From NCBI GenBank assembly GCA_024640845.1, contig JAHEEE010000001.1:44453-108452 (forward strand): a stretch of DNA of 64,000 nt, written 5' to 3'. The stretch comes from Myxococcales bacterium (lineage in GTDB: Bacteria > Myxococcota_A > Polyangia > Polyangiales > Houyiibacteriaceae). The notes beneath the pieces are model-generated. The model made no database searches and had not been told where the DNA came from. It saw only the letters and a list, made by a program, of their open reading frames with translations. Every line of letters begins with the position of its first letter. Position 1 is the first letter of the stretch. The position numbers and the translations under genes were made by a program. Positions 29,220 to 35,604 of the stretch are shown here, one piece after another.

Positions 29220-29824
29220 GCGATCGAGATCTAATCTCGCAGCTATGCGATGCGGTCGGAATGAGCGCGCCGGACCGATGGAGGGACTACTTCGATCTGG
29301 TGAAAGTGTGGGGAGCCAAGACCGATCTTACGTCGGCGCGCACCGACCCCGAGCTTGCCGAGATCCTGTTTCTCGACGCCGCGATGGTGATCAAGGCGAG
29401 TTGGTGCCCTTCCGGAGCAAGTCTCGTGGACGTCGGAGCGGGTGTCGGAGCACCGACGATCCCGATCCTCTCGTACGACGAGACGCTGAGCGGCGCCTTG
29501 ATCGAGCCGCGGCGTATTCGAACGACGTTTCTCAGGACGGCTGCAGGCTTGCTCGACATCGCCACACGCACGCGCGTCCTCGAGGCCAAGATCGATCCAG
29601 CGAACCCTTCCCTTGAAGGAACGCCCTTCAGCATCGCGCTGTCGCGAGCGACGTTCGGGCCGGACGAGTGGCTGCAGATCGGATCCAAGCTTGCCAAGGA
29701 GGTCTGGGTACTGACCGCGGGCACCGAGCCGACCCAGCCGAACGACCTGGAGCAAGTTCGCCGCCTCGACTACACCGTGCCGTCGAGCGGCGCCCCAAGA
29801 ACCATCCTCGCGTATCGTGGCTGA
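29216..29824 (+). CDS. RsmG (GidB)-like methyltransferase
   Basis: 202-aa class I methyltransferase-like protein. The motif I region is SLVDVGAGVGAPTIPIL, followed by SGALIEPRRIRTTFLRTAAGLL, which matches the layout of RsmG, the 16S rRNA m7G527 methyltransferase. The N-terminus (YFDLVKVWGAKTDLTSARTDPELAEILFLDA) also fits. Later motifs are weaker than in E. coli RsmG, so substrate identity is uncertain. It is coupled by overlap to a Ser/Thr kinase and faces the rpmH-yidC cluster, near which rsmG often lies. Confidence 0.7.
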   Translation: MSDRDLISQLCDAVGMSAPDRWRDYFDLVKVWGAKTDLTSARTDPELAEILFLDAAMVIKASWCPSGASLVDVGAGVGAPTIPILSYDETLSGALIEPRRIRTTFLRTAAGLLDIATRTRVLEAKIDPANPSLEGTPFSIALSRATFGPDEWLQIGSKLAKEVWVLTAGTEPTQPNDLEQVRRLDYTVPSSGAPRTILAYRG

Positions 29825-29845
29825 CGCTGCAGCCAGCAGGCGGAA

Positions 29846-29963
29846 GCGCGAGCCGAAGGCGAAGCCCGGCGCGAATGTGCCGCCAAGCTCGAGCGAAGCG
29901 ACGAGCGCGGAGGGAGGACTACGCGGTGGGGGTGGGCGGGTCGGATGTAACTAAACCAGACCA
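29846..29963 (+). repeat. Structured repeat family, copy A
   Basis: First of three related copies. It begins 21 nt after the RsmG-like stop. Hairpins: I, GCC-GAA-GGC (29852-29860); II, CGGCGC-GAAT-GTGCCG (29867-29882); III, GCTCG (29887-29891) with CGAGC (29902-29906) around AGCGAAGCGA. The G-rich tail GGAGGGAGGACTACG...GGGGGTGGGCGGGT ends TAACTAAACCAGACCA. Stem II contains a G-T pair that is a wobble only when read on the plus strand. See copies B and C. Confidence 0.8.
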
Positions 29964-30002: not shown

Positions 30003-30548
30003 CTACCGTCGGCGTCTGGCCGGAATGATCTGGATCCGCCTTCGCGTGCCCTCGCCTTGCGACATCGTGCTGACGCCCTCGAACTTCGCGAGAGACATAT
30101 GGATGACGCGGCGGTCGCGCGCGTTCATCGGTTGAAGCGTAACGACCTTGCCTTCGTTCAAGGCGCGCTCAGCTTGGCGTTTGGCCATCGAGACGAGGCC
30201 ATCGTCGTGACGTTCGCGGTAATCACCCGAGTCGACCACCACATGCCGGCGGCCTTCGGGGAAACGATTGACCATTTTGTTGATGAGAAACTGGAGCGCA
30301 TCGAGTGTGGCGCCCTTCTTTCCGATCACGCGCCCGGAGTCTTCGCCGGTTGCGTTCAGCTCGATGCGTTCCGCGTCCGAGCGAATCTCGACCTGTACGT
30401 CGAGATCCATCAGGTTGATGAGCTCTTCCAAGATCTCGGCAGCCTCTTCGGCTTTACCGTCCCCAGCGAATTGGGCTGGGTCTTCCTGGTCGGAAGGTTG
30501 ATCGAGAAACAGGGCGCCATCGCGTGGCTTGTTCTTAAGCTCGTCCAC
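30003..30548 (-). CDS. khpB: KhpB/Jag-type RNA-binding protein (KH and R3H)
   Basis: 181-aa RNA-binding protein. I place the start at a GTG at 30548, inside the end of yidC, with AGAAGAGGA six to seven bases upstream; no in-frame ATG gives a sensible N-terminus. The KH domain has IELNATGEDSGRVIGKKGATLDALQFLINKMVN (the GxxG loop is GKKG) and the R3H domain has PMNARDRRVIHMSLAKFEGVSTMSQGEGTRRRI. The N-terminal Jag domain is reduced to a short acidic stretch. It overlaps yidC by 14 nt, the normal order in the rpmH-rnpA-yidD-yidC-jag cluster. Confidence 0.9.
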   Translation of the reverse strand: MDELKNKPRDGALFLDQPSDQEDPAQFAGDGKAEEAAEILEELINLMDLDVQVEIRSDAERIELNATGEDSGRVIGKKGATLDALQFLINKMVNRFPEGRRHVVVDSGDYRERHDDGLVSMAKRQAERALNEGKVVTLQPMNARDRRVIHMSLAKFEGVSTMSQGEGTRRRIQIIPARRRR

Positions 30549-34019: not shown

Positions 34020-34958
34020 TCAGAACTCCGCGATGGCCTCGTGGACCCGCGCATCGTGGGCCGGGATGATCAGCAGCTCTGGATTGGCCTGCTGCAGCTG
34101 GTGCAACAGAACTAGTTGGTCGCGAACCGCTTTCGCGTCCGAGTCGACCATCCGTCTTGCAAGCCAGGGCTTTTCGGCGGGCCAGTCGACGCCTTCTTTC
34201 GTCCACGACGTGTCTCCGATGATCAAGGCGCGTTTGCCCGAGGCGTCGGTTACGAAGACGCCAACCGACCCCGGCGTATGCCCAGGCATCGGAACGATCA
34301 CCACGCTCCCGTCGCCGTAGAAGTCCTGGCTCTCGTCGAACGGGCCGTAGGGGCCGCTCGTGAAGCTCGGCTCGTGAAGCTCGAATGGAGCGGCAGCCTC
34401 GAGCTCGCGGTACAGTTTCCCCCCCTCGTCATCCGAGCGCGCGTACGCGAGCTCCTCTGGCGTGATCCACACCGGCACGCTTCGAAGGTCGGCAAGCCCG
34501 CTGACGTGATCCCAGTGGGAATGCGTCAACACGATTCCGCCGAGGTCGGACGCTTCGACACCGCGCGCACTGAGAGCGTCGATGGTGGGTTGTCGGACAG
34601 TCAGCTCGGCAAGAGCTCTCATCAAGAGCGGTGTCGTGCCCAAATGCGCGGTGACGTCCCGACCAACGCCGGCGTCGATCAGCAATATCCCTCGCGGATG
34701 CTCCACGACGAACGCGCCAATCCCGGTTATGAACTGCTTCAATAAGGACCCGCCCCGAACACTGAACGCCTCTCGCGACGTCATCTCCGCCCCACGAATC
34801 ATCGACAACGAGACGCCTTCGACAGCAATGGCATCCGGCACCACCGGCCCAGCGACCTCAGGCACGGGCAGAGGCCGCTTGACGAAGGTCCAGGCGAGCG
34901 CTGCGAGCAGGGCCACCAAGATTAGCGAAGCGAATTTGATCGTCACACGGCGGAGCAT
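34020..34958 (-). CDS. Membrane-anchored metallo-beta-lactamase-fold hydrolase
   Basis: 312 aa from the ATG at 34958. An N-terminal helix (FASLILVALLAALAWTFV) anchors it facing the periplasm. The MBL fold has the zinc motif THSHWDHVSGL, a later PMPGHTPGSVGVFV (third His) and LIIGDTSW (bridging Asp), with a final HDARVH. The layout resembles N-acyl-homoserine-lactone lactonases, but many MBL hydrolases look similar, so the substrate is open. Upstream lies the large repeat-filled gap; a three-way-junction element ends 51 nt before its start. Confidence 0.82.
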   Translation of the reverse strand: MLRRVTIKFASLILVALLAALAWTFVKRPLPVPEVAGPVVPDAIAVEGVSLSMIRGAEMTSREAFSVRGGSLLKQFITGIGAFVVEHPRGILLIDAGVGRDVTAHLGTTPLLMRALAELTVRQPTIDALSARGVEASDLGGIVLTHSHWDHVSGLADLRSVPVWITPEELAYARSDDEGGKLYRELEAAAPFELHEPSFTSGPYGPFDESQDFYGDGSVVIVPMPGHTPGSVGVFVTDASGKRALIIGDTSWTKEGVDWPAEKPWLARRMVDSDAKAVRDQLVLLHQLQQANPELLIIPAHDARVHEAIAEF

Positions 34959-35009
34959 ACCAGCTAGCCCCCTCGCTGATGCAGGACGCCCGGGCGTCGA
35001 GGTACACAC

Positions 35010-35196
35010 GGGGCTCGGAAAAACGCGATAGGGGTTTCACGGGACGGGGCGGCCTGCAAAGGTGGCCCGTAGAACTGGGGAGGTCAGGCCACGCACGCCG
35101 CCCCTCGGTGCGGCGCGCCAATCGGGGGTGGTTGCTGTCGTGCCGATTGTCACTTCGCACGCCCGCTCCAACCCCTACCGCGTTTTTCCGAGCCCC
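35010..35196. repeat. 187-bp element with 27-bp terminal inverted repeats
   Basis: Arms at 35010-35036 and 35170-35196 match at 26 of 27 positions (begin GGGGCTCGGAAAAACGCG). Inside are two further stems: GGGGCGGC (35046-35053) with GCCGCCCC (35097-35104), and AATCGG (35120-35125) with CCGATT (35143-35148). Together they make a three-way junction. The single mismatch (35028 A, 35178 C) would be a G-U pair on the minus strand, the strand of the metallo-beta-lactamase gene 51 nt downstream. No clear target duplication flanks it. Could be a MITE-like element or a structured leader. Confidence 0.75.
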
Positions 35197-35275
35197 TTAT
35201 GAACGACTCCTTGCGTCAGAAGGGCTGCGACGGTGTGTGCACGTGGAAGACCCAATTCACAAGACATGCGCGGTA

Positions 35276-35397
35276 GCGCGAGCCGGAACGGCGAAGCCCG
35301 GCGCAAGTGCGCCGGCAAGCCCCAAGCGAAGCGAAGGGGCGCGCAGGGAGGATTACGTGGCGGGGGTGGGCGGGTCGGATGTAACTAAACCAAACCA
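35276..35397 (+). repeat. Structured repeat family, copy B
   Basis: Second copy. Hairpins: I, GCCG-GAA-CGGC (35282-35292); II, CCGGCGC-AAGT-GCGCCGG (35298-35315, seven pairs); III, GCCCC (35319-35323) with GGGGC (35336-35340) around AAGCGAAGCGAA. The tail AGGGAGGATTACGTGGCGGGGGTGGG continues to TAACTAAACCAAACCA. Compared with copies A and C the stem bases differ but stay paired while loops and tail are constant. Confidence 0.82.
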
Positions 35398-35435
35398 GCT
35401 CCCCAACCCGCCGACCACTCTCCGGCAAGCAACCC

Positions 35436-35553
35436 GCGAGCCCGCAGGGCGAAGCCCGGCGCGAATGCGCCGCCAAGCGCGAGCGAAGCGAGTGCCGCGG
35501 AGGGAGGATTACGCGGCGGGGGTGGGTGGGTGGACATTAACTAAACCAAACCA
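35436..35553 (+). repeat. Structured repeat family, copy C
   Basis: Third copy, 38 nt after copy B in the same orientation. Hairpins: I, GCCC-GCA-GGGC (35440-35450); II, CGGCGC-GAAT-GCGCCG (35457-35472); III, GCGC (35477-35480) with GTGC (35492-35495, one G-T) around GAGCGAAGCGA. The tail GGAGGGAGGATTACGCGGCG...TAACTAAACCAAACCA matches the others except GGACAT in place of CGGATG. Confidence 0.82.
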
Positions 35554-35604
35554 CGCCACAGGCCCAACCCACCGCCGAAGCCAGCAATCAACCGCCGCCA
35601 ACCC

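Follow-up and report, generated by a model that had tools for sequence, protein, structure and literature searches.

A REP is a palindrome of 20-50 bases with a conserved tetranucleotide, usually GTAG, immediately before it (PMC8266576), and in REP systems the RAYT gene has a copy of the repeat on either side, the two being in inverted orientation (PMC2817692). Streptococcal BOX elements are composite, modular and intergenic, with a variable number of tandem units and predicted stem-loops (PMC3049150). Interspersed repeats are common in bacteria, but few show so clearly a conserved multi-hairpin fold as the one described here, and it is rarer still for such a repeat to have a divergent relative in a second family that shares its layout. 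Three copies (A, B, and C) lie in a window of 64,000 nucleotides from a 4.1 Mb MAG that holds about 65-79 copies in all; the carriers are soil and sediment bacteria of the Myxococcota. These copies belong to a family of fold-conserved interspersed repeats that is real and previously uncatalogued: at gathering score, Rfam 15 matched nothing but unrelated tRNAs, and a literature search found no description, in keeping with the preliminary description, which knew of no named family with such a layout.

The repeat resembles the REP/BIME/REPIN systems (RAYT/TnpA-REP) in several respects. It is high-copy, intergenic, and palindromic, pairing is preserved between variants through complementary stem changes, inverted pairs and placement at gene ends are seen, and the genus encodes PF01797 proteins. 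In contrast to the single palindrome of a REP, however, the unit is about 110-140 bases long and contains three to four hairpins. A conserved GTAG directly before the palindrome was not found; GNAG before the first hairpin varies and is missing in second copies, and on the minus strand GTAR lies at least 6 bases before the first hairpin. Nor are the PF01797 genes flanked by the repeat, unlike RAYT genes flanked by REPs. The repeat thus lacks two defining features of true REPs and falls outside the strict definition of a REP. Compared by description, BOX elements share its modularity, intergenic position, tandem units and predicted stem-loops, but the modules here are the repeat and a palindrome, X, that is unrelated to it, and the unit is not tied to an insertion sequence by terminal inverted repeats. 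MITEs are likewise short, non-coding, dispersed and patchy between relatives; no terminal inverted repeats were seen in the aligned copies of the repeat, and the adjoining X repeat is the more MITE-like of the two.

On the plus strand, each unit consists of an optional 5' hairpin (GCGC-GGNA-GCGC, which forms in many copies), H1 (general form GCC[C/G]-GNA-[G/C]GGC), a linker of constant sequence (GAAGC), H2 (GGCGC-loop-GCGCC), H3, a core, a G-rich stretch and finally a tail rich in A and C. The stems I, II, and III of the preliminary description are those of H1, H2, and H3. H3 has a variable stem on a constant AGC-GAA-GC tip, then an AA/GC internal loop and an outer covarying pair, and is followed by the near-invariant core AGGGAGGAYTACG. 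Copy A (about 29840-29963, plus strand), identified like copy B from sequence, BLAST and alignment, is a single unit between two genes assigned by Pfam, rsmG/gidB (plus strand, ending at 29824) and jag/khpB (minus strand, ending at 30003). Copies B and C form a direct pair on the plus strand with a core-to-core spacing of 156, between genes for a metallo-beta-lactamase-fold protein and a DnaJ/TPR protein (Pfam). Copy B (35260-35397) is a full unit, CAAGACATG to ...TAACTAAACCAAACCA, whereas sequence and alignment place copy C at about 35433-35553 without the 5' hairpin.

In copy B (all features on the plus strand), H1 is GCCG-GAA-CGGC with a GNA triloop (35282-35292), its closing pair covarying between C-G and G-C, and H2 is GGCGC-AAGT-GCGCC (35300-35313), its stem nearly invariant and its loop variable in length. 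H3 spans 35315-35344, with a covarying stem, the constant GC-GAA-GC tip, the AA/GC internal loop and, from the covariation analysis, outer pairs 35315-35344 and 35316-35343. The unpaired, near-invariant core AGGGAGGATTACG follows at 35345-35357 and the G-rich stretch (GGCGGGGGTGGGCGGGTCGG), which is conserved in the f12 family discussed below, at 35359-35380; this stretch may form a G-quadruplex.

The paired stems, constant loops, G-rich tails and TAACTAAACCARACCA ends first described for the three copies were all present, the end motif occurring three times in the window where chance would give 0.12. Several details required correction: copy B is real but starts about 16 bases further 5', at CAAGACATGCGCGG (35260); the ACCA end holds for copies A, B, and C but is not general, many copies running on ...AAACCTCCCGACGCCAATCGCG; and stem III is paired as stated but longer, with a covarying C-G/G-C pair and a constant C-G pair outside the AA/GC loop. 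The arms of stem III in copy C match only when shifted in register (GCGC/GTGC), as if two stem types had been joined into a chimera; its G-T pair is therefore weak evidence.

Covariation strongly indicates that the fold matters. In a structure-blind scan of 179 distinct copies (131 alignment columns, background-corrected mutual information on all pairs), ranks 1-4 and 7 were the stem pairs 64-77, 62-79, 57-84, 28-32, and 63-78, while ranks 5 and 6 were cross-terms inside the same stem; the top covarying stem pairs were 93-99% complementary. Among 46 diverse copies, 98.5% of the structure cells were paired and the stated structure had a covariation score of 0.228, compared to 0.054 (sd 0.009) after shuffling, a null that ignores the shared ancestry of the copies, and at most 0.039 when slid. 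The 3-bp stem of H3 occurs as ten different perfectly complementary sequences around its constant loop and is paired (G-T allowed) in 158/176 copies, whereas randomly dealt arms paired in 52 on average and in 69 at most. The closing pair of H1 and the outer pair of H3 occur in all four combinations, so one inherited split does not account for the data. Pairing is kept while stems vary, as first proposed from three copies, and the fold is conserved by matched stem changes. Copies are many and covariation is strong, the opposite of the few copies and missing covariation named at the outset as grounds for abandoning the idea.

Hairpins with tiny loops are hot spots of template-switch mutation, and if the repeat spread selfishly or neutrally, template switching across its hairpins would keep the arms complementary without selection on the fold; copy C, the seeming chimera, could have been repaired in this way. 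Mismatched stems are rare, however (18/176), and the loops, internal loop and core are constant across genera, which would need selection or strict recognition. We therefore regard this explanation as very improbable.

The family is far more widespread than the window. Within its own genome, BLAST found 53 places, the exact core AGGGAGGAYTACG occurs 65 times and a covariance model, R1, gave 79 matches; the true number may be higher, since repeats break assemblies and several copies lie at contig ends. The search for further copies proposed in the preliminary description thus succeeded, with R1 matching 15 of the 19 genus genomes (79, 59, 53, 37, 36, 30, 24, 19, 10, 9, 9, 8, 8, 7, and 4 matches). 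It gave zero matches in the genus members G001, G008, G016, and G018, two of which are rated 100% complete, and zero in 15 genomes from other genera of the same family. Over 290 genomes of the class, R1 matched outside the genus only weakly, and there only four genomes of f12, another family of the order. When 184 genomes of the order were searched with a motif, matches came only from the genus and from three of those f12 genomes, with zero control-motif matches among the matches listed. A second covariance model built from f12 sequences alone (R2) gave 4-21 matches per genome in five f12 genomes from three genera, and in return weakly recovered the genus copies and nothing else. These reciprocal searches link the genus repeat and the f12 repeat as diverged relatives with the same layout. 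Although the stems of the f12 units differ, the GAGCGAAGCGA tip, GGAGGAYT[A/C]CGG and a G-rich tail are all retained, GGAGGAYTACG of the core being common to both; 31 f12 copies are subfamily-structured, and in G217 (f12) four units are spaced 154-168 bases apart, near the usual spacing in the host genome. Public records carrying the genus motif are MAGs labeled Myxococcales, Deltaproteobacteria or Polyangiaceae and some "uncultured bacteria". Weak BLAST matches in other genera (L153-L157) were set aside as apparent chance resemblances within coding sequence. An origin in phages or plasmids was also rejected, as viral contigs, phages and plasmids gave no match to the repeat. The 400-odd matches in 20 genomes amount to a natural experiment.

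We analyzed the placement of the copies relative to genes called with a simple, uncurated codon-usage caller, counting tandem copies separately and some genomes possibly twice; the figures are thus descriptive. The intergenic position noted for the window copies is general: 64/67 copies in the host genome, 141/142 in other genus genomes and 31/32 in f12 lie outside called genes. Direct pairs are frequent in the host genome, with core-to-core spacings of 145-156 (mostly 154), and the 5' ends face each other in 6/6 close inverted pairs. Convergent flanks far outnumber divergent ones (72 vs 9), while between co-directional genes repeat orientation shows no significant bias (43 vs 28). The tail points towards a gene end in 157/210 cases (45/63, 91/121, and 21/26 by set), and its median distance from the convergent gene's stop codon is 57, 47, and 0 bases, respectively. 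An FtsK/KOPS-like polarity was considered and dismissed, since the copies listed for the single-contig genome G014 alternate in direction throughout.

Such placement would suit a portable gene-end element, either a Rho-type terminator or an mRNA 3'-end stabilizer, with copies kept for that role; seen from the convergent gene on the tail side, the minus strand presents a C-rich, G-poor stretch and then strong hairpins. In the genus, however, gene ends are also favored on the 5' side (33:16 and 71:28), most of the pattern is explained by promoter avoidance, and this function predicts neither tandem pairs nor the absence of copies in congeners. We consider it improbable as an account of the family, although a function at gene ends is possible; the placement fits promoter avoidance, as for REPs.

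Whether the fold acts as DNA or as RNA was assessed from loops and mismatches. A GNA loop is present in H1 of 160/169 copies and the GC-GNA-GC tip in H3 of 137/159, but only 46/173 copies have a GNA loop in H2. GNA and GNNA loops on G-C stems are extraordinarily stable mini-hairpins in DNA (PMC4686876); the triloops of H1 and H3 therefore mildly favor a single-stranded-DNA fold over RNA, and we lean to the former. The G-T pairs that had been taken as a clue to an RNA read rightwards proved uninformative in the larger set, stem mismatches over 179 copies comprising 9 G-T vs 6 A-C, and the copies point both ways between co-directional genes. Coding by the repeat appears unlikely, because H2 loops differ between copies by single bases (GAA vs GAAT) and frames are not kept; a GTG after GGAGGA is lost in the many copies where C replaces T.

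The main rival explanation is a structured RNA, with copies transcribed or acting within the 3' region of neighboring transcripts, where a protein would perhaps see the GGGAGGAYUACG core together with the unvarying loops and the AA/GC internal loop. Selection on RNA typically leaves covariation alongside constant loops and a constant core, as found here, and the layout persists across two families despite different stems. Against this stand the lack of a significant orientation bias between co-directional genes, the lack of an Rfam relative, the DNA-type triloops and the complete congeners that manage without the repeat. Single-sequence folding energies were also unremarkable, as expected of GC-rich sequence (z = 0.45 as DNA and -0.36 as RNA), so that a single copy folds no better as RNA than its shuffles. 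On balance, an RNA seems rather unlikely. Were the fold to act as RNA, it would define a new high-copy RNA family; acting as single-stranded DNA, it would offer a new substrate class for enzymes that handle such strands.

Comparison of orthologous loci bears on past movement. The rsmG-jag gap, which holds copy A in the window, contains no repeat in G001, G004, G007, and G018, where -1 to 27 bases separate the conserved flanks, and a fifth congener has an unrelated tandem repeat instead. At the locus of copies B and C, the same two neighbors lie 63-74 bases apart in G003 and G015. The copy most similar in sequence to a given one lies within the same genome at a frequency of 0.62, vs 0.28 expected. 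Target-site duplications were not found between congeners only about 75% identical, a distance at which neither these nor the exact ends could be defined. Together, patchy presence, repeat-free orthologous gaps, pairs and likeness within genomes support past dispersal, as judged from sequence comparison. The core, which is more constant than expected of decaying mobile copies, hints at selection on individual copies. Relative to its DnaJ/TPR neighbor, the metallo-beta-lactamase-fold gene of the window has the reverse orientation from that in G003 and G015 (34020-35600), and copies B and C sit at one breakpoint of this inversion.

We then consider which protein might mobilize the repeat. A RAYT/IS200 partner was rejected, as PF01797 occurs in 13/19 genus genomes without its presence tracking the repeat, and the repeat is missing from all 20 PF01797 loci of the genus. 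PF04986 (IS91-type Y2 transposase) was not found in G000, the host genome, or in 12/19 genus genomes, 9 of which 12 carry the repeat; an IS91/Helitron-like non-autonomous element was discarded because the Y2 transposase is absent from the host genome. An all-against-all comparison of 502 neighboring genes revealed no recurrent transposase or nuclease family; those that recurred were ordinary cellular genes, some being the same locus in several assemblies. As four genus genomes lack the repeat, the gene for a mobilizing protein could be sought by comparing gene content. Separately, a 216-aa IS200-like (RAYT-type) gene at L053 (G000:C81) is bracketed by inverted GGGGACAGG/CCTGTCCCC motifs, and a similar motif pair occurs at L178.

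The preliminary description named two origins, structured RNA and REP-like mobile DNA; patchy and intergenic occurrence, orientation without significant bias, pairs and empty gaps favor the second, in a broad rather than a strict REP sense. We give even chances to the repeat being a non-autonomous REP/MITE-like mobile DNA family that acts through a folded single strand. When single-stranded, the plus strand or its complement would fold into three GC-rich hairpins, with a fourth in many copies, and this row would be followed by the unpaired core GGGAGGAYTACG and the G-rich tail. A protein encoded elsewhere would recognize the loops and core of the folded strand and move or copy the repeat, leaving stems free to change if pairing is kept, and copies would survive where genes stay joined to their promoters. 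More tentatively, and with greater doubt, the family may represent an uncatalogued mobile element or RNA defined by its fold, in which GNA-tipped hairpins with free stem turnover accompany a constant GGAGGAYTACG core and G-rich tail in two Myxococcota families, and which is moved or used by a non-RAYT protein.

Other repeats occur near the copies. Repeat X, an imperfect palindrome of ~200 bases that lies 5' of copy B (35002-35204, no strand assigned), is MITE-like and dispersed, has the ends GGGGCTCGGAAAAACGCG / CGCGTTTTTCCGAGCCCC and is also found at L312-L327. It is fused 5' of the fold-conserved repeat at roughly 35 loci of the host genome, and in G001 it is present alone. A further hairpin repeat, GACCCCGTAAAGTGACTTCGTCACCACGGGGC, lies 3' of copies at L115, L124, L114, and others, and runs of a GACGCT unit recur. 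At L423 (G207:C259:18000-34000), diverged copies of the fold-conserved repeat, partly in a tandem of three, lie among at least nine closely spaced, same-strand tRNA genes with Uma2 and HNH endonuclease genes nearby; this region is possibly a mobile tRNA array.
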